From NCBI GenBank assembly GCA_030447505.1, contig JAUJOT010000010.1:62001-126000 (forward strand): 64,000 bases of DNA, written 5' to 3'. Source of the DNA: Solirubrobacteraceae bacterium (GTDB lineage: Bacteria > Actinomycetota > Thermoleophilia > Solirubrobacterales > Solirubrobacteraceae). The translations under genes and the position numbers were made by a program. Under the pieces are notes generated by a model that did not search any database, had not been told where the DNA came from, and saw only the letters and a program-made list of their open reading frames with translations. Position 1 is the first letter of the stretch. The number at the start of each line of letters is the position of its first letter. Shown here piece after piece: positions 4,565 to 64,000 of this stretch.

Positions 4565-6033
4565 GCCGGGCCTCCCTTGTCGCCGGGTGTCGAATGGGTG
4601 AAGACGCAGGTGCCGCGCGTGCCGCTGTTGCCGTAGGTGATGATCGCGCCGTCGCGCGCGCGCAGCGCGCGGACGAACGCGCCGGCATAGCCCTCGTCGT
4701 TCGCGAAGATGCCCCAGTTGGCCTGCCAGAGCTCGATCTCGCCGCTCGCTTGGTCCACCACCCGCTCGGGCGCCGGGACCACGACCTCCTGCGCGACGTA
4801 GTCCTCGCCGGCGATCGCGTGCAGCGCATCGGACCACTCGCTATCGGTCAGCTCGCGTCCGAGCAGCGCGCCGGCACCGCCGCAGCCCACGCCGCGCTTG
4901 AGGATCAGCGACTCGCGCCGCTCGCGGCAGTGCTCGATCAGCGCCGCTCGGTCGCTCGCGCCCGCGCCCGCGCCCGTGCCGACCGTCCGCGTCCACGGCA
5001 CGATCCGATCGATGAGCTCGAGCTCCTTCGCCCGGAAGCACGCGCGGTGGCGCGGGTCGTGCAAGAGCGCGAGATTGGCCTTGCTCTCGACGAGGCCGCA
5101 CTCCAATGACGTGAACAGCGCGGTGCCGCCTTCCGCGTGGGCGTCCGCGATCATCTGCATGACCTCCGCGCCCGAGGAGTAGCACTGCAGCAGTTGCTCG
5201 GCGGTGAAGTAACGGAGCAGCACGTCGAGCTCCACGCCGTCGAGCGTGAGCTTGCCGCGGCGCATCGAAAGCTGCTGAACTTCGCCTAGGAGCAGCGAGA
5301 TCCCATAGCGCTGCATCGCCTCCTCGATCGCGGTGAACACGTGCGCGTGCTCGCGCAGCCCGCCCGGGCCCTCGATCAGCGCCACCACGGGCTCCCCGCG
5401 CGAACCGACCCGCCGCGCGGCACGCCGCAGCTCGCCGGCGAGCACGAGCGCGGTGTCGCGGTAGGCGAGCTGCTCGCGGCGCGCGAACTCGGCGAAGGCG
5501 GGGATGTCGAGGAAGGCGCGGTTCATCTGGGCGGCATCGATGCCGCCCAGCTCGCTGCCGACGTTGAACTCGAGCAGCCTGAACCTCGTGCCGTCGTGAT
5601 AGGCGTCGGCCCGGCTGTAGCGCTCGGGACGGCCAGTCGCGCCGATGCGCATCAGCTCGGACTGGCGCTCGTCAATACCAAGCGCAGCGCAGTAGCGGCC
5701 GACGTCGCCGTCAAAGCAGCGCTCGGGCAGGGAAGTGAGCAGGTCGAACAGCGCGCTCAGGTCGCTGGCGAACGTCACGATCTCTCCGTAGTCGGCGAAC
5801 AGCGGCCGGCTCAGCCTCAAGTCGCCGTACGCGTCGAGATAGGTCGGCGGCAGCACGAGCTCTTCGAACGATGCACGCAGCGCACTGCAGGCGTCTGTGC
5901 ACTCGGCGACGTAGCGGGCGGTCACGGTGTCGCCGACGGCATCCGGCGGGACCGCCGACGGTGCTCGGCGCGCATCAGGCGCGGCCCGCGCGATGGCAGT
6001 CGCCGCGGACACTCGGTGCTGTTCGCCGGTCAT
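4561..6033 (-). CDS. ATP-grasp ligase (circularly permuted / glutathionylspermidine-synthase-like)
   Basis: 490 residues, ATG at 6033 in an ATGA overlap with the upstream fusion gene. An EFNVGSELGGID segment (about residue 170) and a glycine-rich loop LKRGVGCGGAGALLG (about 395) followed by AQEVVVP resemble the metal and nucleotide sites of circularly permuted ATP-grasp enzymes, which form amide bonds through acyl-phosphates. It sits between an ATP-grasp/GNAT fusion and kynA, so joining an amino acid or amine to a kynurenine or anthranilate acid is the natural proposal. Exact substrate unknown; the subfamily call is tentative, the ATP-grasp call firmer. Confidence 0.7.
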   Translation of the reverse strand: MTGEQHRVSAATAIARAAPDARRAPSAVPPDAVGDTVTARYVAECTDACSALRASFEELVLPPTYLDAYGDLRLSRPLFADYGEIVTFASDLSALFDLLTSLPERCFDGDVGRYCAALGIDERQSELMRIGATGRPERYSRADAYHDGTRFRLLEFNVGSELGGIDAAQMNRAFLDIPAFAEFARREQLAYRDTALVLAGELRRAARRVGSRGEPVVALIEGPGGLREHAHVFTAIEEAMQRYGISLLLGEVQQLSMRRGKLTLDGVELDVLLRYFTAEQLLQCYSSGAEVMQMIADAHAEGGTALFTSLECGLVESKANLALLHDPRHRACFRAKELELIDRIVPWTRTVGTGAGAGASDRAALIEHCRERRESLILKRGVGCGGAGALLGRELTDSEWSDALHAIAGEDYVAQEVVVPAPERVVDQASGEIELWQANWGIFANDEGYAGAFVRALRARDGAIITYGNSGTRGTCVFTHSTPGDKGGPA

Positions 6034-8462
6034 CCGAATGCGCGGGCGTTGCGCAGGACGGGAACGGGCTCCGGGACGGCGGGGAGGAGCGGCAGATGCG
6101 CCTGCATCCCCCGGTCCATCTCGCGCAGGCGGGCGTGAAGGGCATCGTGGTCGCGCCCGGGCGTGAGGTACACGAGCGACCACAAGTCGGTGGGCGCGAA
6201 GCCGTGGCGCTCCTTGAAGGCGAAGTTGCCCCGCCCGGCCTCGACGAACCGGCAGCCCTCGCGCACCGCGAAGCGGATCGACTCGAAGATCAGGAAAGAG
6301 TACGTGCCGAGCTCCGACCGGCGAGCGTAGTCGTGGCCGCCGGCCCACAGGTACAGGCTGTCGTGGTGCAGGAACGTCAGGAACGCCCCAATCGCTTCGC
6401 CGTCGCGCTCGGCCACGAGCAGCGTCGCCCCGGGCACGCGGCTGAGGGCGGCGAAGGTCTCGACGTTGTACAGCGGCGGCCCGTGCCGGCTCGAGGTCGC
6501 CTCGGCCAGCGCGGCGACATCGGCGAGCTGCGGCTGCATCGCTTCGCCGCGCAGGACGTTGAGCGTGAGGCCGCGCTCGGTGCTGCGGCGCCACAGGCGA
6601 CACAGCTCACGACGGGCGTGCCCGCTCATCGTCGCCAGGTGCGCCTCGACTCCGCGCGAAACGTCCGCGCGATAGGCACGGTCGAGAACCAGCGAGATCG
6701 TCGGCGGCGACACTGCGCTCCACGCCGCGGCGACGTCGGGCTCGAGGTTTCCGACGACGAGCGCGGCGGCGCCCCAGAGGCGTGCCTGCTCGAAGCCGCG
6801 ATCGACGATCCGCCGCGCCTGCTGCAGGGGGGCCGCGTTGGGTCCGTAGAAGGCGTACAAGCTCGGCGTCACCGCGACAGGCGCGCCCCAGACCGGGCCA
6901 ACTCCCGCGTCGGTCTCGTAAGCGTTCCACATCGGCGAGTCGTCGACGAGGTAGAACGGGTCGACCGCCGCGGTGTCGGAATGGCGCAGGTAGCACCGCG
7001 TGATGTGGCGCTCGGCCGTGGCTCGCTCCCACGCTCGCAGCCAGCCCTCGCTGTCGAACACGTGGTCGGCCGCGGCCGGCGGCAGCGAGGGCACGCGCTC
7101 GTCCCACCACGTGGCCGCTGATCGGCGTGCCAGCGGGACGACGGGAGCGAACTCGCGCGTGTCGGCCGGCCGCTCGTCACCACCACCGGCGCTGTCGCCC
7201 GAGCGCGTATCGGCCGCGCCGCCGATCGGCGCCGGCGGCGCTGACAGCGGCTCCGTCGAGAGCAGCAGGTGACGCTCGACCTCGTCGAGCCGCGCCTCGC
7301 ACTGGACCTCGCTCTCGCCGGTGACGATCGCGAACCCGAGGCGCGACATGAAGCCGTCGGGCGGCAGCCTGAGGACGTCGCCCTCCGACACCTCCCAGCA
7401 GACGCGGTCCAGCCATGCCGGCACCGGCCACCGCGGATCGAGCTTGCGCCCGAGCACGCGGATGTCGGCCCTGGGATAGAAGAAGCGGATCGCGGCCGCG
7501 CCCCGGCGGGTAGCGGCCAGCCGCGGGCGCCGGCCCACGGCGATGTCGGCGGCCGCACGGGCGGTGTCGACGCCGGTCGACAACCTGCCGACGTACGGGA
7601 TGAGGTCGCCGCCGAGCCGCGCGTTGACTTCGATGACGCGAAGGCCGGTCGCCGTCAGGCGCAGCTCGGTGTGGGTGATGCCGCGGTCGACGCTTAGCGC
7701 GCGGTGCGCCGCGACGACGACCTCGCGGATGCGCTCGCGGGGCAGCGACGCGTCGGGCCGCGAGCAGACGACGTGGCCGGTCTCCTCGAAGAATGGCGCC
7801 AAGCCGAGGCGCTTCCTCGCGACGACCGCGATCTCGAGCTCGCCGTCGAGGACGGCGCAGTCGACGCTGATCTCGGGGCCCTCGAGATACTCCTCGACGA
7901 GCACGCCGGCAAGCGCGTCTACGCCCGGCAGGCGCGAGCCGGTGGCGAGCTCGTAGGCAGCCGGCAGCTCGTCCGGGCCGGCCACCATCGTCACGCCGAC
8001 GCTGCCCGCCAGCGCGCGTGGCTTGACGACCACGGGGTAGCCAATGCGCTGCGCCGCCGTCTGGGCCCCGTCGAGTGTCACGGCGTGCTCGGCGCGCGCC
8101 GACGGCACCCCGGCCGCGTCCAGCGCACGACGCGTGGCGAGCTTGTCGCGGCAGCGCGCCGCCGCCGCGCTATCGATGTGCGCGATGCCCAGCTGCGCCG
8201 CGATCTCCGCGGCCAGCCGCACCCGGGTCTCGTCGTAGGTCAGGACGCCGGCCAGCTCGTGGCGGTCGCCGCACGAGCGCGCCGCGGCGAGCACCGCGGC
8301 CTCGTCGTCGAGGCACGCGAGCAGCCCGTCGACGATGTACGGACGCTGCCATGTCGCCGGCGCCGACTGCACGAGCACCAGCCGGTAGGTCTTCGCGATC
8401 GTGGCACAGACATACTCGCGGTACAGCCGGTCGCCGCTTGCGATCAGCAGGATGGTTTCCAT
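6030..8462 (-). CDS. Fusion of ATP-grasp amino-acid ligase and GNAT/FemAB-like acyltransferase
   Basis: 810 residues, ATG at 8462 behind GGAGGTGGAAGC. Residues 1-400 form an ATP-grasp ligase of the L-amino-acid-ligase/carboxylase type: VVVKPRALAGSVGV (ATP lysine loop), VEEYLEGPEISVD, and metal-binding VIEVNARLGGD. A Gly/Ala/Ser-rich linker (about 405-450) leads to a C-terminal peptidoglycan-biosynthesis-type GNAT domain with SRHGPPLYN, YSFLIFESIRFAVREG and RGNFAFKERHGF. ATP-grasp makes an acyl-phosphate for amide bonds; GNAT/Fem domains transfer acyl or aminoacyl groups. Both activities in one chain suggest two consecutive acylations. First gene of the minus-strand operon. Confidence 0.8.
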   Translation of the reverse strand: METILLIASGDRLYREYVCATIAKTYRLVLVQSAPATWQRPYIVDGLLACLDDEAAVLAAARSCGDRHELAGVLTYDETRVRLAAEIAAQLGIAHIDSAAAARCRDKLATRRALDAAGVPSARAEHAVTLDGAQTAAQRIGYPVVVKPRALAGSVGVTMVAGPDELPAAYELATGSRLPGVDALAGVLVEEYLEGPEISVDCAVLDGELEIAVVARKRLGLAPFFEETGHVVCSRPDASLPRERIREVVVAAHRALSVDRGITHTELRLTATGLRVIEVNARLGGDLIPYVGRLSTGVDTARAAADIAVGRRPRLAATRRGAAAIRFFYPRADIRVLGRKLDPRWPVPAWLDRVCWEVSEGDVLRLPPDGFMSRLGFAIVTGESEVQCEARLDEVERHLLLSTEPLSAPPAPIGGAADTRSGDSAGGGDERPADTREFAPVVPLARRSAATWWDERVPSLPPAAADHVFDSEGWLRAWERATAERHITRCYLRHSDTAAVDPFYLVDDSPMWNAYETDAGVGPVWGAPVAVTPSLYAFYGPNAAPLQQARRIVDRGFEQARLWGAAALVVGNLEPDVAAAWSAVSPPTISLVLDRAYRADVSRGVEAHLATMSGHARRELCRLWRRSTERGLTLNVLRGEAMQPQLADVAALAEATSSRHGPPLYNVETFAALSRVPGATLLVAERDGEAIGAFLTFLHHDSLYLWAGGHDYARRSELGTYSFLIFESIRFAVREGCRFVEAGRGNFAFKERHGFAPTDLWSLVYLTPGRDHDALHARLREMDRGMQAHLPLLPAVPEPVPVLRNARAFG

Positions 8463-9035: not shown

Positions 9036-10277
9036 GTGATTGTCGAAGAGCTCAACTCCTGGCTCGAGAGCCCTGATCCCGCGACCTTCCCCGTCGATGC
9101 GGTCGTGGGCGAATACCACCGAGTAGGCAAGCACTTCGTCGGCGACGAGCTGCTCGAGGCGCTTGCACGAGTGCGCGCGTCCGCGCTTGCGCACGCGCCG
9201 ACCTGCCCGGATGCGCATGTGCTGCGCCGCTTCCTGGACACGGCGCTGGACAAGCGCGACGGCCGCTACGAGTACACGACCTACATTGCCCTCTCGCTGC
9301 TTCCGATTCCCGGCGTGGACGATCCGTGGCGCGCCGACGCGCGGGGCGCGCTGCGGCGCCGCGACCAACTCGTGCTCGCGCTGCTCGCCGACGTTGTCGG
9401 CTTCGAGCTCGACAGCGCCGACGGGCATACCGAGCTGTTCCCGGAGATGCCGCCCGACGCGGGCACGGTGATCAAGCGTTGCCGCCATGCGTTGCGGGTC
9501 GCGGCGCCGGCGCTCGAGCGGGAAGGGCTGATGATCGCAGATCTCGAGCCGGTGCCCGCCGCGCGTGAGCTCTGCGCGACGATCGCGGCCCGCCTGACGG
9601 AGCGCGAGCGACGCGTCCTGAAGCTCAGCATGCTGCCGGTCTACGTCTCTCACGACGAGTACCTGTTCATTCGCGTGCTGCAGCTGTTCGAGACGACGTT
9701 CGCCAGCCTGGCGCTTGCCCTGCTCAACGCAGTGGACGCGCTCGGCGAAGGAGATGCCGCCACTGCCGCCGAGAGCGTCGCGCTCGCCGGCGCGACGCTG
9801 CGCGAGTCCGCTCCGCTGTTCTCCCTGCTCGGCACCATGCAGGTCGAGTCGTTTCGGACCTTCCGCGCCTTCACCGATGGGGCGAGCGCGATCCAGTCGC
9901 GCAACTACAAGACTGTCGAGTCGATCTGCCGGCGGCCGGATCCCGACCGGCTGAGCTCCGCGGCGTACACGTCGACCCCGGAGGTCCGCGAGCGCGTGCT
10001 CGCCGGCAACGCGACGCTCGACGACGCGTTCATGTCGGCCTACGCCGCCGACCGGCTCACGACGGACGAGCGGGAGGCGCTCGGTGAGGCGATGCGCGAG
10101 TTCGCGGCGACGCTGCAGCGCTGGCGTCACACGCACTACCGGCTTGCCGTGCGAATGCTCGGCGAGCGGACCGGCACCGGCTACACCGAGGGCGCCGGCT
10201 ACCTGGCGTCGGTGCGCTCGATCGATGTCTTGCGGTCGGTATCACGCTCGGACGTCGTCGTCAGCCATGCAGTCTGA
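9036..10277 (+). CDS. TDO/IDO-superfamily haem protein (PrnB/MarE-like relative of tryptophan dioxygenase)
   Basis: 413 residues, GTG at 9036 directly after a TAA and without a strong ribosome site. The C-terminal block RWRHTHYRLAVRMLG then RTGTGYTEGAGYL (about 362-390) mirrors the proximal-His and GTGG regions of tryptophan 2,3-dioxygenase, and MQVESFRTFRAF resembles the FQSYQFRELEF segment. It is much longer than KynA and differs elsewhere, like secondary-metabolism members such as PrnB, MarE and SfmD that do unusual oxidations of indoles or phenols. Its presence beside a canonical TDO argues for a different step. The next start codon overlaps it by 11 bases. Confidence 0.7.
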   Translation: MIVEELNSWLESPDPATFPVDAVVGEYHRVGKHFVGDELLEALARVRASALAHAPTCPDAHVLRRFLDTALDKRDGRYEYTTYIALSLLPIPGVDDPWRADARGALRRRDQLVLALLADVVGFELDSADGHTELFPEMPPDAGTVIKRCRHALRVAAPALEREGLMIADLEPVPAARELCATIAARLTERERRVLKLSMLPVYVSHDEYLFIRVLQLFETTFASLALALLNAVDALGEGDAATAAESVALAGATLRESAPLFSLLGTMQVESFRTFRAFTDGASAIQSRNYKTVESICRRPDPDRLSSAAYTSTPEVRERVLAGNATLDDAFMSAYAADRLTTDEREALGEAMREFAATLQRWRHTHYRLAVRMLGERTGTGYTEGAGYLASVRSIDVLRSVSRSDVVVSHAV

Positions 10278-11916
10278 CGCGCCGGTCTGCGTCGTCGGCG
10301 CCGGGCCGGTCGGGCTGACGGCAGCCGCACGGCTGGCATCGTTCGGCATCCGCAGCGTCGTGCTGGAAGCCAACCCCGGGCTGGTCAGGCAGGGCTCGAA
10401 GGCGTGCCTCATCCAGGGCGACGTGCTGGAGGTCCTCGACAAGGTCGGTTGCGGCGCGCAGATCCACGAGGAGGGCGTGACGTGGCACGTCGCGCGGACG
10501 TATGTCCGCAACCGCGAGATTCGCAGCACGCGGTATGCGGATCGGATCGGGTTCGGCCCGTTCGTGAACATCTCGCAGTACCGGATCGAGCAGCTGCTGC
10601 TAGCGTGCGTCGACGCCGATCCGCTCTCCGAGGTCCGCTGGTCGCACGCGGTCACCGGGGTCGAGCAGCACGCAGACGCGGCGGTCGTCCACGCCGACAC
10701 CCCGTCCGGCCCCGTGCGCCTGCGGTGTCGCTACGTCGTCGCCTGCGACGGCGTGCGCAGCCGCATGCGCGAGATCGTCGGGGTCGCCTGGACCGGGTAC
10801 TCGCACAAGGACAGGTTCCTCATCACGGACATCCGGGCGCGGCTCCCGCTCGCCCGGGAGCGCCACTTCCATTACGACCCGTCCTTCAACCGCGGTCGCC
10901 AAGTGGTCATGCATCCCCAGCCCGACGACGTCTGGCGGATCGACTGGCAGCTTCGCCGTGACACGGACATCGTAGAGGAGCGGCGCACGGGAGCGTTCGA
11001 CGCGCGGGTGCGTGCGGTGATCGGGGACGTCCCGTACGAGGTCGACTGGTTGAGCACCTACCGCTTCCACCAGCGCGTCGTCGAGCGGTTCGTCGTCGGC
11101 CGGGTGCTGTTCGCCGGTGACGCGGCTCACGCACTGCCGCCGTACGGCGCGCGGGGCATGAACAGCGGCATACAGGACGCCGACAACCTCGCGTGGAAGC
11201 TCGCTGCGGTCCTGCGCGGCTGGTCGTCAGAGCACGTCATCGAGACCTACCACGGCGAGCGCTACGCCGCAGCGGTGGAGAACCTGGCGGTGACCGAGGC
11301 GACCATCGGCTTCATGGTGCCGCGAAGCTCGCTGCGCCGGTACGGTCGCGCAGCCGTGCTCGCGCTCTCGCGACCGTTGAAGTTCGTCCGTGGACGGGTC
11401 AACAGCGGCCGCATGGCGGAGCCGTTCGTCTACCGCGACTCCTCGATCGTCGATCCGGCCGATGGGCACCCGCTCATCGGCCACCTCGCGCCGGACGGCT
11501 TCGTCTCGACCGCCGACGGCCGGCGACGAGTTCGCACACTGTTCGGCGGGGAGCTCGTAGTGCTGCACTTCGGCGCCGACCCCGTCGCGGCGCAACGACT
11601 CGCGCGCGAGTGGACCGAGCAGGAGGTGCTGCCGCCGGTGCGGCTCGTGCTCGTGATGCCCGCGGACTCCAAGCTCGCGCAGCTGCCCGACACGGTCGTG
11701 CTGGCACACGACGACGATAGCTGCCTGCGCACGGAGTACCGCGTCGAGCGGCCGCAGTGCCTTCTCGTGCGACCGGACGGCCACATCGCTGCCGCGGTCG
11801 ACGCTCGCGCCGGCGAGGTCGCCGCGGCGGTGGCGCGCTGCACGCGCGCGCTCGCGCCCCCCCACGTCGAGGCGCTCGTCCCCGCCGCCGCGGCGCCCGC
11901 CCTACGATGCGGATGA
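10267..11916 (+). CDS. FAD-dependent aromatic hydroxylase (class A flavoprotein monooxygenase)
   Basis: 549 residues, ATG at 10267 overlapping the previous gene by 11 bases. Rossmann motif GAGPVGLTAA (about residue 10), DG motif ACDGVRSRMRE, and GD motif GRVLFAGDAAHALPP followed by GARGMNSGIQDADNLAWKL place it in the p-hydroxybenzoate-hydroxylase/MhpA family, with a C-terminal thioredoxin-like extension from about residue 390. These enzymes hydroxylate phenolic or anilinic rings using NAD(P)H and oxygen. In this cluster, 3-hydroxylation of kynurenine or anthranilate is the simplest idea. No membrane helix is seen, unlike mitochondrial kynurenine monooxygenase. Confidence 0.88.
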   Translation: MQSDAPVCVVGAGPVGLTAAARLASFGIRSVVLEANPGLVRQGSKACLIQGDVLEVLDKVGCGAQIHEEGVTWHVARTYVRNREIRSTRYADRIGFGPFVNISQYRIEQLLLACVDADPLSEVRWSHAVTGVEQHADAAVVHADTPSGPVRLRCRYVVACDGVRSRMREIVGVAWTGYSHKDRFLITDIRARLPLARERHFHYDPSFNRGRQVVMHPQPDDVWRIDWQLRRDTDIVEERRTGAFDARVRAVIGDVPYEVDWLSTYRFHQRVVERFVVGRVLFAGDAAHALPPYGARGMNSGIQDADNLAWKLAAVLRGWSSEHVIETYHGERYAAAVENLAVTEATIGFMVPRSSLRRYGRAAVLALSRPLKFVRGRVNSGRMAEPFVYRDSSIVDPADGHPLIGHLAPDGFVSTADGRRRVRTLFGGELVVLHFGADPVAAQRLAREWTEQEVLPPVRLVLVMPADSKLAQLPDTVVLAHDDDSCLRTEYRVERPQCLLVRPDGHIAAAVDARAGEVAAAVARCTRALAPPHVEALVPAAAAPALRCG

Positions 11917-12917
11917 TCGAGGAGCACGACGCAGCGATGCCGTCGCCGCCCAAGCCATCGCCGGCGACGCCCGGCGCGCCCGACTACGCGTGGCTGAACG
12001 GACGTCTCGTCCCGTTCGACGAGTGCGTCGTGCACGCGCGCTCCCAAGGCGCGTTCTGGGGCGCCAACGTGTTCGAGGGCCTGCGCGGCTACTGGCTCGA
12101 GGGTGAGCAGCGGCTGTCGATCTTCCGGCTTGAGGATCACCTGCGGCGGCTGCGATGCTCGATGAAGAGCCTCCACATGCCGCTGACCTACAGCGACGAG
12201 GAGATCGCGCAGGCCTGCTTCGCGCTCCTCCGCGCCAACGACCTGAAGGCGGACGTGCACCTCTGCGTCGTCGCCTACTTCGGGCTCGGCGCCAACCTGG
12301 ATCCTCTGAACTACACCGACGACACCGGGATGCACATCACGTGCATGCTCGCGCCGCGCTCGCGCGGCTTCACGCACGGGCTGCGCGCCTCGATCTCCAC
12401 GTGGCGGCGCATCAGCGACGACACGATGCCGCCGCGCATCAAGACGGGCGCCAACTACCACAACAGCAGGCTCGCCCAGCACGAGGCGGTGCGCAACGGC
12501 TTCGACACGACGATCCTGCTCAACCAGGCCGGCAACGCGGCCGAGACGCCCGGCGCATGCGTCGTCATGGTCCGCGACGGCCGGCTCGTGACGCCGCCCG
12601 GCACCAGCGGCGTGCTTGAGGGGATCACGGTCGCGACCGTCGAGCAGCTCGCGTCCGAGCATCGCGGCTGGACGTTGGAGCGCCGCCCGATCGACCGTAC
12701 CGAGCTGTACATCGCCGACGAGCTCTTCGTTTGCGGCACGCTCGTCGAGATCCAGTCCGTCGTCGAGATCGACCGCATCGCGGTAGGGGACGGTGCTCCC
12801 GGACCAGTCACGCGCACGCTCCAGCGCCTGTACGAGCAGGCCACGCGCACGCCGGGCCTCACCGGATGGTCGACGCCGGTTCCCGCGGCGGAGCCCCGCC
12901 AGCGGTCGGTCGCCTGA
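11913..12917 (+). CDS. Class IV aminotransferase (branched-chain/D-amino-acid/ADC-lyase fold)
   Basis: 334 residues; the ATG at 11913 overlaps the hydroxylase stop (ATGA), and an ATG two codons upstream is possible. WGANVFEGLRGYW (about residue 47), the Schiff-base lysine in RIKTGANYHNSRLA, and TPGACVVMVRDG then GTSGVLEGITV are diagnostic of the fold IV family. It may transaminate an aromatic or branched-chain acid, or act as a 4-amino-4-deoxychorismate-lyase-like enzyme; motifs cannot separate these. In a cluster with its own DAHP synthase, a chorismate-derived substrate is conceivable. Confidence 0.85.
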   Translation: MIEEHDAAMPSPPKPSPATPGAPDYAWLNGRLVPFDECVVHARSQGAFWGANVFEGLRGYWLEGEQRLSIFRLEDHLRRLRCSMKSLHMPLTYSDEEIAQACFALLRANDLKADVHLCVVAYFGLGANLDPLNYTDDTGMHITCMLAPRSRGFTHGLRASISTWRRISDDTMPPRIKTGANYHNSRLAQHEAVRNGFDTTILLNQAGNAAETPGACVVMVRDGRLVTPPGTSGVLEGITVATVEQLASEHRGWTLERRPIDRTELYIADELFVCGTLVEIQSVVEIDRIAVGDGAPGPVTRTLQRLYEQATRTPGLTGWSTPVPAAEPRQRSVA

Positions 12918-50965: not shown

Positions 50966-50969
50966 CGAT

Positions 50970-51017
50970 GGCGAGACCCGGACTCGAACCGGGGACACCA
51001 CGATTTTCAGTCGTGCG
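50970..51017 (-). tRNA. 3' fragment of tRNA-Phe(GAA): probable attachment-site scar
   Basis: Read on the minus strand: anticodon stem-loop CACGA-CTGAAAA-TCGTG with GAA anticodon, variable GTGTC, T-arm CCCGG-TTCGAGT-CCGGG, 3' acceptor strand TCTCGCC plus discriminator A, no encoded CCA. The expected 5' acceptor strand (GGCGAGA) and a proper D-arm are absent upstream. Integrative elements commonly recombine into tRNA 3' ends and leave such a partial copy; here the island would extend toward higher coordinates. Confidence 0.75.
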
Positions 51018-60851: not shown

Positions 60852-61853
60852 CTAGGGCTTCAACCGGCGTTCGACACGACGGGTCAGCCGGTCGAGTCGC
60901 CGTTGTACGGCTGCCCTATCTCGACGCTCGTCGCGCAGTTGCGTCGACAGCTGGCTAACCCGATCGCTCAGCGCCTGTCGATCCTTGTCGGTATCGCCGA
61001 CAAGTCCGTACACGGAGATTACGAGCGCAGCGAGGCCCGCTGCGATGGCGGCAAGGCCCAACGCGGAAACTCCGAGGAAGATGCGGCGAACGCTTCGCGC
61101 CTCGCGAGCGCTCTTGTCCGCGGATTCTTGCGCCTGGCCAACCAGTCTGGGGATCGAACTCGTAATCGGCGTCGGGGAGGCCCTGCCGATGTAGTCCTCG
61201 ACATCGTGCCTGCTCAGCTTGCGCGGTGGGAAGTCAACCCAGGTCTTGCCTTCTCGCTCTGTCCGGCCTGACCACCGCTTGTGGGGAGAGAGCTTGGTGA
61301 ACTCCATCCAGACCAAGGGCTCGCCGCCTTCGAGTTCGTAATCGTTAGACGTGAGGTTGTGCAGCGGCAGTGAGAGCCGACCCACGAACCCGGGATCGAC
61401 GAGCGGCCCAGTACCCACGAGGAGGCCGCGGTAGATGTCCCGGATCGTGAGGTTGAAGCGCGCCGCGATGTAGTCCGGCATCCGAAACATCGGCTCGAGC
61501 GTGACGTACACGATCGAGTTTCTCGCCAACTGGAGCTTCTGTCCAGAACCGAGCTCGAAGGAGTCCTTGGTCGCGACCATACGGCCCTTCGTCTCTTCGT
61601 ACTCCTCACGCCAGAAGAGCACTTTGCCCCGGAGCGGGATCGCGCACGACGCCGGCTTTAGCCGCACGCTTGGATCAGCTGCAGGAATGTCAAACGGATA
61701 GACCATCCCGGTCGTCGCGACATAGTCGAGTAGGTCGGCGACGTTGAGAAGTGCCGAAGGGATCTCCGGAAAGGGGTCTCGTGATCGTGTGGCTTGAAAA
61801 CGACTCTCGGCGTCCGCGTCGTGGGCTGGGAACTGAGGTAGGCCGCTCGCCAC
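60852..61853 (-). CDS. dUTPase/dCTP-deaminase-fold protein with a C-terminal membrane anchor
   Basis: 333 residues, GTG at 61853 with GGAG upstream, 13 bp after the PurZ-like stop. Residues 60-210 carry the trimeric dUTPase/DCD pattern: RFNLTIRDIYRGLLVGTG, LVDPGFVGRLSLPLHNLT, GEPLVWMEF. The Arg/Ser motif and catalytic Glu of active dCTP deaminases are not evident, so binding rather than deamination is plausible. A hydrophobic helix (FLGVSALGLAAIAAGLAA, about 255-280) and a charged coiled coil (DRVSQLSTQLRDERRDRA) end the protein. Cytoplasmic nucleotide sensor tethered to the membrane is an inference. Confidence 0.65.
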   Translation of the reverse strand: MASGLPQFPAHDADAESRFQATRSRDPFPEIPSALLNVADLLDYVATTGMVYPFDIPAADPSVRLKPASCAIPLRGKVLFWREEYEETKGRMVATKDSFELGSGQKLQLARNSIVYVTLEPMFRMPDYIAARFNLTIRDIYRGLLVGTGPLVDPGFVGRLSLPLHNLTSNDYELEGGEPLVWMEFTKLSPHKRWSGRTEREGKTWVDFPPRKLSRHDVEDYIGRASPTPITSSIPRLVGQAQESADKSAREARSVRRIFLGVSALGLAAIAAGLAALVISVYGLVGDTDKDRQALSDRVSQLSTQLRDERRDRAAVQRRLDRLTRRVERRLKP

Positions 61854-61866
61854 GTCGGACTCCGGG

Positions 61867-62898
61867 CTACGCGACGAGCGCCCCGGCGGTGCGACACGGC
61901 ACGAGCACGTCGGGGCCGAGCCCCAGAAGGTCCACCGGCCGGCCGATGTCGGCGGCGACCTGCGCGACGAACTCTTGCGCGCGGGCGGTGAGCGCGCCTC
62001 TTCGCACTTGGTAGTCGACGTAGTCGACGTGGTTCAGCACGATCATCGTGGGCCGGTTGACCGCGATGGCGTCACGCACGATCCCAGGATCGAAGCGCGA
62101 GACGCGCCGGACGAGGCCTGTGACCGAGGTTCGCTCCTCGACAACCGAGTCGAGCCCACCTTCGGCTGCCAGAGTCTCCCAGTCGATCTCTTCGCCCCCG
62201 AATGGCCCAGAGTCGCCTGCGACTCGGATCGGATGGGCCCGTAGGACGAGCACGACCTGGTCCACATCAAGCGGGCTCAGGCCGGCTTCCGAGAGGGCAC
62301 CGGCGGCAGACGTGTCGCGGGAGGTTGCCTTCGGGAAGTGCGGCGTGTGCAGCAGGGACAGTCCGAAACCCTGCGTGCCTTCGATCACTACGCGCTCCCC
62401 CTCGTCGAGCAATCCTCGGAGCACGTCGACACTAGGACGCACGTAAGGCGCGAGGGCCTGGCATGAGTCGGCGAGGATCTCGGCGGACCCACGCATCGCC
62501 CGCCGCACCACGGCTGCGCCGGTCCCACTGCAAGTTGAGCCGATCCTGCGACGGAGGTCGGACCGCTCCTCCGCGAGCCGATCAGCCTCCGAGATGATCA
62601 TGGCGTTCGGATCAATGACGAGACGGTCGGCGGGGAGGTCGAGGCGCGCGACCTCCTGCAGGAGGATGGGAACATCGATGTACGAGCCAGCCGGGAGAAC
62701 GCAGAGGACGTCTGGGAGCAAAGCTGCAGTCGGCAGCTGTCGAAGAACCTGCCGTGGAGGTCCCATCGTCGTGTGACCCGAGTTCGAGCCGCCAACGCGC
62801 ACCACCGCACTGGCACTCTGCGACGTCGCGAGCGCCTGCGCGACCTTTCCCTTGCCCTCGGAGCCATACTGGCCACCGACCACGACGCTGACTGCCAT
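61867..62898 (-). CDS. Adenylosuccinate-synthetase-family enzyme of PurZ-like type
   Basis: 343 residues from ATG 62898 (AGGA 8 bp upstream; ATG 62907 also possible), much shorter than PurA at about 430. P-loop GGQYGSEGKGK has Ser13 where PurA has the catalytic Asp, the change described for phage PurZ. Other blocks also follow PurZ: GGSNSGHT (His42), IGSTCSGTGAA, EGTQGFGLSLLH, ATSRDTSAAG, RAHPIRVAGDSG and GLGPDV. PurA converts IMP to adenylosuccinate; PurZ uses dGMP toward 2-aminoadenine. Co-directional with the DCD-fold gene and divergent from 62960. Confidence 0.8.
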   Translation of the reverse strand: MAVSVVVGGQYGSEGKGKVAQALATSQSASAVVRVGGSNSGHTTMGPPRQVLRQLPTAALLPDVLCVLPAGSYIDVPILLQEVARLDLPADRLVIDPNAMIISEADRLAEERSDLRRRIGSTCSGTGAAVVRRAMRGSAEILADSCQALAPYVRPSVDVLRGLLDEGERVVIEGTQGFGLSLLHTPHFPKATSRDTSAAGALSEAGLSPLDVDQVVLVLRAHPIRVAGDSGPFGGEEIDWETLAAEGGLDSVVEERTSVTGLVRRVSRFDPGIVRDAIAVNRPTMIVLNHVDYVDYQVRRGALTARAQEFVAQVAADIGRPVDLLGLGPDVLVPCRTAGALVA

Positions 62899-62959
62899 GG
62901 ATGACATCCTACGGACGCCTGCGGACGGCCGCGGGCGATCCCGGACGGGGCGGACCGCG

Positions 62960-63658
62960 ATGAAGGATCAGTACGTCGGCGACGTCAACGACTTCTGGAA
63001 GTACGCGATTCTCAGAGCTCTGGCGGGCGCGTGGCCGGGACGTGTTCGCGTTTGCTGGATGCTCACGGCGCCAGACAACCGAGCCGACGGACGGCACGTG
63101 GCGTACCTGGACGAGCCGCCGCGCTTTAGGGGGGTGGACCCCGAGCTATTCGATGGGCTCGAGCAACTGATCGCATCCGGCCAACGGTCGGTACACGCGG
63201 TCGAGTCTATGAAGCTTTGGCCCGACGCGCGGTTTCACTCCAGCATCCTGCCCGACGAGCTGTCCGCTCGCAGCGCCTATTTCGAGAGCCTCTGGGAGGC
63301 GACAGGCTCGGAGGATCTCCTCTTCTTCGATCCCGATAACGGCGTAGAGGTCCCGAGCGTCCCAAAAAGACGGCGAGGGAGCGCGCGCTACGTCTACTGG
63401 GACGAGGTCGACGTTGCCCTGGAGAGGGCGGGTGCGATCTGCATCTACCAGCACTTTCCACGCGTCGCGCGCGAGCCTTTCGTCTCGAGCCTCCTGTCTC
63501 GGGCCCTCCAGCGCGCTCCCGGACATCACGCGTTTGCTCTGTTCTCAACACGGGTCGCCTACATGGTCGTCTGCAAAGACGGCCACGCAAGGACTCTTTC
63601 AGCCGGCGCGCGCGGGCTCGTCCGGCGCACTCGCGCGCTCCGGTTTCTCATGGCTTGA
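62960..63658 (+). CDS. Conserved protein of unknown function (DPDNG motif)
   Basis: 232 residues from ATG 62960. KDQYVGDVNDFWKYAILRAL at the N-terminus, VCWMLTAPDN, LLFFDPDNGVEV (about residue 130), RYVYWDEV and CIYQHFPRV are strongly patterned, like a Rossmann-type nuclease or methyltransferase-related fold, but no SAM motif is certain. Divergent from the PurZ-like gene over 61 bp and followed after 71 bp by a kinase-like gene, so it may belong to the same nucleotide module. Function not assigned. Confidence 0.6.
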   Translation: MKDQYVGDVNDFWKYAILRALAGAWPGRVRVCWMLTAPDNRADGRHVAYLDEPPRFRGVDPELFDGLEQLIASGQRSVHAVESMKLWPDARFHSSILPDELSARSAYFESLWEATGSEDLLFFDPDNGVEVPSVPKRRRGSARYVYWDEVDVALERAGAICIYQHFPRVAREPFVSSLLSRALQRAPGHHAFALFSTRVAYMVVCKDGHARTLSAGARGLVRRTRALRFLMA

Positions 63659-63729
63659 TCCCATGAAGCGCGACGTCGGGAGCCGCGCGCGGCCAGGGGC
63701 AGCCGCGCGAGCGACGAAACTATGGAGCG

Positions 63730-64000
63730 ATGATCGCCGCGCTCGAAGGACTTCCTGGGGCTGGAAAGACAACCACCACCGCTCACATCGCCGAGCGGCT
63801 CAGCATCGCGGCTGTGCGCGAGACGACCGCCGACCATCCATTTCTGAGCCAGGTGTATGACGATCAGGGACGCGACGACCTAACGGTCGAACTGGCTTTC
63901 CTCATCGTCCATGCCAACGCATACCGCCGGGTGAACCGCGCGTCGGCGACCGTGACCGACTTCTCACCCGTCAAGGATCTGCTGTTCGCCGAAGACATGC
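63730..64000 (+). CDS. Deoxynucleoside-kinase-like P-loop enzyme (3' end outside window)
   Basis: 90 residues visible from ATG 63730. P-loop ALEGLPGAGKTTTTAHIAE at the very N-terminus and VTDFSPVKDLLFAED about 75 residues later match deoxynucleoside (dA/dG/T) kinases, where the D-F/Y segment contacts substrate. It would phosphorylate a deoxynucleoside or a monophosphate. Next to a PurZ-like synthetase and a DCD-fold protein this strengthens a deoxynucleotide theme. The C-terminal part is needed to decide the subfamily. Confidence 0.6.
   Translation, partial: MIAALEGLPGAGKTTTTAHIAERLSIAAVRETTADHPFLSQVYDDQGRDDLTVELAFLIVHANAYRRVNRASATVTDFSPVKDLLFAEDM

Follow-up and report, generated by a model that had tools for sequence, protein, structure and literature searches.

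The DNA analyzed here, referred to below as the window, is a stretch of 64,000 nucleotides from the genome of a Solirubrobacteraceae bacterium (contig JAUJOT010000010.1, positions 62,001 to 126,000; G000:C9:62001-126000), the right-hand part of which carries a group of nucleotide-related genes beside the defense systems CBASS (cyclic oligonucleotide-based antiphage signaling system) and ietAS. The group is headed by a gene for a short relative of adenylosuccinate synthetase (PurA), a protein of 343 amino acids (aa) encoded on the minus strand at 61867..62898, which, based on its translation, family models, PDB relatives, a tree with a topology test, a table of pocket residues and the predicted fold, is described here as a PurZ-type (Ser13) succinyl-purine-nucleotide synthetase. 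On the same strand, 13 bases past the stop codon of the synthetase, starts a gene for a 333-aa protein with a putative fold of the dCTP deaminase (DCD) type, a C-terminal transmembrane (TM) stretch and a coiled coil (60852..61853, minus strand), denoted DCD-TM. On the other side, across a divergent intergenic region of 61 bp (62899..62959, from the gene coordinates) in which no sigma-70 consensus was found, lie two genes on the plus strand: one for a protein of unknown fold denoted DPDNG (62960..63658), divergent from PurZ, and one for a deoxynucleoside kinase (dNK; PF01712), the first 90 of whose 198 aa are encoded in the window (63730..64000) and which extends past it to contig position 126326 (window-equivalent 64326; L004:5730-6326). 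That a Ser-type PurZ enzyme heads a mobile nucleotide module at this locus is held with high confidence.

Sequence and substrate pocket of the synthetase

The translation of the synthetase gene places Ser13, within GGQYGSEGKGK, at the position of the catalytic Asp of PurA and contains the further blocks EGTQGFGLSLLH and RAHPIRVAGDSG. In the pocket table, PIRVAGDSG replaces the PurA block TRVG.GPF, GST replaces GTT, and the conserved N, Q, T and RR pocket residues are present; the hallmarks of the IMP (inosine monophosphate)-type PurA, Asp13 and TRVG.GPFPTE, are absent. Translation and pocket table thus agree with the initial annotation, made from the sequence alone, which had described a short protein with Ser13 in place of Asp and PurZ-type blocks. 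Ser occupies this position in all 22 bacterial relatives and in the phage rows of the set, and Asp together with the TRV block is found in all seven rows of the PurA side (five bacterial PurA, archaeal PurA and ToyG from locus L044). In the published PurZ group, Ser is present in all 147 phage sequences, with Asp in about 99% of PurA (PMC12884076). The structure of S-2L PurZ defines the positions of the pocket for deoxyguanosine monophosphate (dGMP) (PMC8342488), and the window synthetase carries the PurZ letters there. Judging from family knowledge, a Ser-type synthetase would join Asp to dGMP.

Bare sequence scores are ambiguous with respect to the predicted family of the synthetase, residues and phylogeny being decisive. 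The protein matches Pfam Adenylsucc_synt (E 7e-42) and scores 237.8 bits with the NCBIfam model of archaeal-type short PurA (PRK04293), the cutoff of which, 368, is not reached; the PurA equivalog models are below cutoff as well (TIGR00184, 162.6 of 395.6 bits; PRK01117, 136.9 of 402 bits). Among PDB relatives, Pyrococcus PurA is the best (7.8e-43), followed by PurZ0 7vf6 (1.7e-40), phiVC8 PurZ (1.3e-26) and E. coli PurA (about 1e-20). The AlphaFold model (predicted local distance difference test, pLDDT, 72.5) has the short PurA/PurZ fold.

The protein could alternatively be an adenylosuccinate synthetase of the IMP type or a ToyG-like gene product of a purine-analogue antibiotic pathway, given that its top single PDB and NCBIfam scores are those of archaeal short PurA and that ToyG-like short synthetases exist on rhizobial plasmids. 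Archaeal short PurA (Pyrococcus horikoshii PH0438, PRK04293) resembles the window enzyme in length and fold and is its best single PDB match, but has Asp, GTT and TRVG.GPFPTE and uses IMP as substrate. ToyG of the toyocamycin/sangivamycin clusters (L044) is likewise a short synthetase that resembles PurA and does not belong to housekeeping purine synthesis, but is Asp-type and has FolE, QueC, QueE and PurB as neighbors. Archaeal short PurA and ToyG-like proteins all combine Asp with TRVG.GPF and are set apart by the tree and topology test described below, and the neighborhood in the window is devoid of biosynthetic genes. Furthermore, the host genome encodes a full-length canonical PurA on another contig (G000:C10, 580 bits), so the window synthetase is not needed in housekeeping purine synthesis. 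An IMP-type or ToyG-like function is accordingly the most improbable of the explanations considered here. The toyocamycin/sangivamycin-like cluster itself was observed on several rhizobial plasmids (L044:8375-16721 on R. leguminosarum plasmid p3, and others) and includes genes for FolE, a short Asp-type PurA, PurB, QueE, an IMP dehydrogenase-like protein, nitrile hydratase, QueC, a phosphoribosyltransferase and QueD.

Phylogeny and distribution

In a tree of 41 proteins (model LG+C20), a branch with 100/100 support divides all Ser-type proteins, the window synthetase included, from bacterial PurA, archaeal PurA and ToyG, and the approximately unbiased (AU) test rejects grouping of the window synthetase with the latter three (p = 0.0012). 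The comparison with PurA, PurZ and PurZ0 that had been proposed in the initial annotation therefore places the enzyme outside canonical PurA. The Ser side of the tree comprises four well-supported groups, namely phage PurZ0, phage PurZ and two bacterial groups, type I and type II, and the window synthetase falls inside type I (100/98). The branching order among the four groups is weakly supported, with 89/86 for type I and PurZ0 and 87/79 for type II and PurZ.

It had also been suggested that the gene might have been captured from a phage with a 2-aminoadenine (Z) genome. Homologues are indeed found in phages, and the island that carries the gene is integrated and mobile. The window synthetase, however, is not nested within the phage PurZ or PurZ0 clades and shares at most about 40% identity with 205 phage relatives, and origin from a known Z-phage is weakened by both facts. 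Given in addition that its partners are kept across two phyla, a captured gene or remnant without a function of its own is a very unlikely explanation. Phage PurZ0 and PurZ (Wayne, Archimedes, phiVC8, S-2L) share with the window enzyme the short length, Ser for Asp13, the PIRVxGxSG block and the dGMP pocket residues; the window enzyme differs from them in being bacterial, forming its own clade, residing on islands or plasmids, lacking DpoZ, MazZ and classical DatZ, and having a membrane DCD-fold protein as a fixed partner.

The Ser-type pattern is rare, being detected in 1 of 396 sampled genomes of the phylum of the window, 8 of 395 Rhizobiaceae and 6 of 385 Alphaproteobacteria, the last count including a genome already counted (G657) and one false positive. 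The pattern misses divergent members, such as those of G212 and G094, which lack it. The false positive, G1366 (L086), is a phosphotransferase system-like locus and was rejected. Scans of viral sequences with the Agrobacterium PurZ, a rhizobial fusion protein (see below) and DPDNG as queries gave no matches. A recent phylogeny of PurZ included phage sequences and four archaeal ones, with prokaryotes sampled at no more than two sequences per phylum (PMC12884076), so that bacterial lineages could easily be missed. No description of bacterial PurZ modules or Ser-type lineages was found in open-access papers, subscription papers and preprints being outside the search; by sequence, types I and II thus appear to be two bacterial Ser-type lineages not described in that literature, with the window enzyme as a putative new sister lineage of PurZ.

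Conserved partners in type I loci

Type I consists of the window, Agrobacterium salinitolerans (L036), Sinorhizobium medicae plasmids (L040, L041) and two further Rhizobiaceae (L073, L078), five genomes altogether; the A. salinitolerans synthetase is 53% identical to the window protein. DCD-TM is encoded directly downstream of PurZ in all five. A kinase is present in three, the window (dNK) and L073 and L078, where it forms the C-terminal domain of an RNase H-like/DUF429 protein encoded by a gene overlapping or adjoining PurZ; DPDNG homologues are found in the same three genomes, those of the other two loci having 34-36% identity to the window protein and lying beside DCD-TM. The conserved linkage expected by the initial annotation therefore stands for the DCD-fold gene and holds only partially for the kinase and DPDNG. 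A search of the 395 Rhizobiaceae genomes with a DCD-TM profile gave full-length matches only in the three that encode type I PurZ and in a distantly related protein from a different gene context (G853). The DPDNG family is also rare, with two matches per query among 72,556 plasmid records for two queries. The full 198-aa kinase of the window locus passes the Pfam dNK model (71 bits, cutoff 27), and both this kinase-like gene and the DPDNG open reading frame (ORF) at 62960-63658 bear out what had been noted near the synthetase. HD proteins are encoded divergently in the Agrobacterium (L036) and S. medicae (L040) loci, and none is encoded in the window module.

The assignment of DCD-TM draws on the Pfam DCD model, a profile of five relatives, motifs, the TM prediction and the linkage described above. 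Pfam DCD matches the window protein with an E-value of 4.2e-5 (24.1 bits, under the cutoff of 27), the profile of five DCD-TM relatives matches solved dCTP deaminases at 1.4e-5, and a single strong hydrophobic stretch (residues 267-285) is followed by a coiled-coil-like tail; the co-directional gene for a membrane protein that had been postulated is present, and its product is DCD-like by sequence. A single-sequence AlphaFold model of the protein has a pLDDT of 41.8. In all five relatives, the Ser-Ser phosphate-binding motif (SSLxR) and the C-terminal glycine motif of dUTPases (motif V) are replaced or absent, and Pro is found at the position of the catalytic Glu of Dcd; the motif RGLL.GTGPLVDPGF.G...P.HN.T is invariant. 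Retention of this motif along with the loss of catalytic motifs suggests that a binding site is conserved under strong constraint and that catalysis is doubtful. DCD-TM-coil proteins were additionally found without type I PurZ, one beside a SAM methyltransferase (L043:5484-6410) and one beside an FAD oxidoreductase (L094:7203-8318), pairings with other enzymes that fit a reusable nucleotide sensor/effector.

These motif losses bear on the possibility that the module depletes nucleotides, in which case dGMP, along with ATP/GTP and Asp, would be drained by the synthetase, and deoxynucleoside triphosphates would be deaminated or hydrolyzed upon infection by the DCD-fold protein, so that phage DNA synthesis is starved. 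All three kinds of partner, DCD-fold, HD and kinase, come from protein families with deoxynucleotides as substrates, and dUTPase and other nucleotide domains are among predicted defense domains (PMC13092281). The canonical catalytic motifs of Dcd and dUTPase are not conserved in DCD-TM, however, and a ligase would be a costly sink, the product of which host PurB would turn back into a usable purine. Depletion is accordingly regarded as improbable.

A second bacterial lineage with different partners

Type II is represented by 18 bacterial loci from rhizobial and Methylobacterium plasmids, alphaproteobacterial genomes and G212, a genome of the order to which the window belongs. Here, kinase and PurZ form a fusion protein of about 530-550 aa, and its gene is followed in 18/18 loci by one for a DUF7002 protein (PF22531, 1.9e-70; for example, L042:9053-9748 and L079:9709-10374). 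An HD protein and a 453-aa protein are encoded in 15 of these loci, and an M78-macro protein is found instead in the other three. The approximately 453-aa partner (L042:13116-14477 and 14 homologues) is always paired with the HD protein and matches no Pfam family; by eye, its C-terminus resembles an ATP-grasp/PPDK region. The kinase part of the fusion is homologous to the kinase domain found in L073/L078 (best E about 1e-12), and the G212 locus additionally encodes a dNK with 38-39% identity to that of the window. Across the modules, a nucleotide kinase recurs as a dNK, as a PurZ-fused domain or in fusion with an RNase H-like gene. Residues 1-47 of DUF7002 gave a non-significant match to DarT1 in PDB (E 0.29), and in three DUF7002 loci a macro-domain protein is encoded upstream of the fusion; a reading of DUF7002 as a DarT-like ADP-ribosyltransferase is only a lead.

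The HD proteins match dNMP phosphatase families far better than DatZ. This matters for the main alternative to a signaling function, in which the dZTP derived from the PurZ product is built by host polymerases into the DNA of the plasmid or island host or of an infecting phage, and the DCD-fold protein (type I) or the HD protein (types I and II) clears dATP/dGTP, serving restriction avoidance or the poisoning of phage DNA. The parallel with the partner folds of Z-phages is striking: a dUTPase-fold DutZ hydrolyzing dATP and dGTP is encoded in all of 98 PurZ0 genomes, and most PurZ phages have the HD enzyme DatZ (PMC12884076). Moreover, datZ, mazZ and purZ alone yield 12.1% Z in E. coli plasmid DNA and 3.9% in the chromosome (PMC8342488). 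Such a module would also be in keeping with the presence of an HD gene at 15/18 type II loci and, within type I, at those of Agrobacterium and S. medicae, as well as with the grouping of type I with PurZ0 (89/86). Against it stand the lack of a Z-specific polymerase or MazZ adjoining the bacterial modules examined, the toxicity of the S-2L triad to E. coli upon expression (PMC8342488), the membrane anchoring of DCD-TM and its lack of both dUTPase motif V and the Ser-Ser motif of DutZ, and the absence of the HD protein from the window genome together with the closeness of the relatives' HD proteins to dNMP phosphatases. The bacterial partners thus resemble DutZ and DatZ in that a dUTPase-fold or HD gene adjoins PurZ, but differ from them in the membrane anchoring and degenerate motifs of DCD-TM and in the greater similarity of the HD proteins to dNMP phosphatases and Atu1052 than to DatZ. 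Incorporation of Z into DNA is considered unlikely, albeit the strongest of the competing explanations.

Inspection of the ORFs in a stretch that starts at 50 kb of the window and extends to 13 kb beyond PurZ revealed no DatZ/DutZ, MazZ or Z polymerase, in agreement, for the part of the window inspected (from 50 kb on), with the absence of DatZ, MazZ and Z-type polymerase reported earlier; a search of the whole window genome with an HD profile built from relatives found no DatZ-like HD gene.

Among phage relatives, IMG/VR contig L038 (and similarly L039) encodes a kinase-PurZ fusion (5455-7044) and a uracil-DNA glycosylase-DNA polymerase I fusion (9121-12111), and by sequence this phage is a candidate Z-phage with a PurZ lineage outside PurZ and PurZ0. 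An assembly of the class of the window (L008, G094:C76) contains a phage-like PurZ with GQWGSTGKGL and MazZ-like, HD-like and ThyX-like ORFs nearby.

Mobile island and neighboring defense systems

A perfect 47-bp repeat of the 3' part of tRNA-Phe, in the same orientation, bounds about 21 kb around the module. The left att-like copy lies at 50969..51015 (minus strand) and is identical to the 3' part of the tRNA-Phe gene at C9:133983-134055 (L004:13983-14055). The stretch between the repeats contains ietAS, CBASS and the PurZ module, together with a gene for a tyrosine recombinase (L004:7814-9376) and a truncated DrmC-like gene, and the module genes have a GC content of 0.63-0.68, versus 0.71-0.74 outside. 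The PurZ module looks to be part of a tRNA-Phe-integrated island of about 21 kb.

PADLOC models recognize both ietAS and CBASS, the latter with cyclase, HORMA, TRIP13 and SAVED endonuclease genes, in accordance with the initial annotation, which had placed both systems beside the module. A PADLOC scan of the window PurZ, DCD and DPDNG proteins matched no known defense system. Elsewhere, the modules are located near genes for Lamassu-like LmuB, type I restriction-modification, PDC-S06, Gabija-like helicases and RADAR-like RdrB, as well as AbiE and SIR2 genes and repABC or toxin-antitoxin genes, and they are found on plasmids. In particular, an RdrB-like (RADAR) gene and an ATPase-like gene were observed beside the type II module on pRLN3 (L042:1031-6546). 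The Ser-type family therefore has conserved partners and a mobile island setting.

Proposed function and implications

We propose that the PurZ-type enzyme attaches aspartate to the 6-position of dGMP, or possibly GMP, which would yield N6-succinyl-2-amino-dAMP (dSMP). The dGMP might be supplied by the deoxynucleoside kinase or might rise when a phage degrades host DNA. From dSMP, host PurB and kinases would lead on to dZMP and dZTP; that these host enzymes can carry a Ser-type product as far as dZTP is known (PMC12884076, PMC8342488). The product, as such or phosphorylated, would be the ligand of the DCD-fold domain of DCD-TM, and this membrane protein would be the sensor and effector of an antiphage response and not a deaminase. 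Most likely, then, the product is a 6-aspartyl or 2-amino purine deoxynucleotide made from dGMP and bound by a DCD-TM with a degenerate site. The logic would be like that of the alarm deoxynucleotide of Kongming (dITP signaling; PMC12948488), where a modified purine deoxynucleotide is likewise combined with a kinase and a nucleotide-fold sensor, but neither a HAM1 nor a SIR2 partner is present in the window module, and the enzyme, sensor fold and presumed effector differ. Sensing, the effect on the membrane and the role in defense are predicted by analogy.

Several points weigh against this proposal. The NCBIfam PurZ model NF038379 gives the synthetase 206.8 bits, under the curated cutoff of 300, and because this cutoff is not reached, the enzyme is filed as a sister lineage and not as phage PurZ proper. 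Comparison of the predicted fold cannot tell PurZ from archaeal PurA. The Glu is missing from the solved "dCTP deaminase" 8y1w as well, which leaves loss of catalysis by the DCD domain unproven. Finally, removal of dATP as in Z-phages is a better fit than signaling for the HD genes of the type I loci of Agrobacterium and Sinorhizobium. Taking the evidence together, a PurZ-type dGMP ligase with a DCD-TM sensor in a mobile antiphage module is offered as a tentative explanation, to which we assign somewhat less than an even chance; the signaling component taken by itself is more tentative still.

That relatives on rhizobial plasmids retain the partner genes suggests that bacteria possess an as yet undescribed system based on a modified DNA building block. 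Such a system might be a mobile bacterial immune family in which a modified purine deoxynucleotide made by PurZ is an alarm or a poison that is read by DCD-TM in type I and by DUF7002 in type II, a generalization that is possible but clearly speculative. The exchange of DCD-TM for DUF7002 between the two types provides an experimental handle on what reads the product. PurZ is known as a hallmark of phages that replace adenine with 2-aminoadenine and from four archaeal relatives, and bacterial lineages would shift the view of where this chemistry occurs. Two bacterial lineages, each tied to its own partner gene and distributed over plasmids and islands, would be relevant to how Z-genomes arose and would open a pathway of immunity based on modified nucleotides to testing; if the immune-family reading is true, PurZ would have a bacterial life outside Z-phages.

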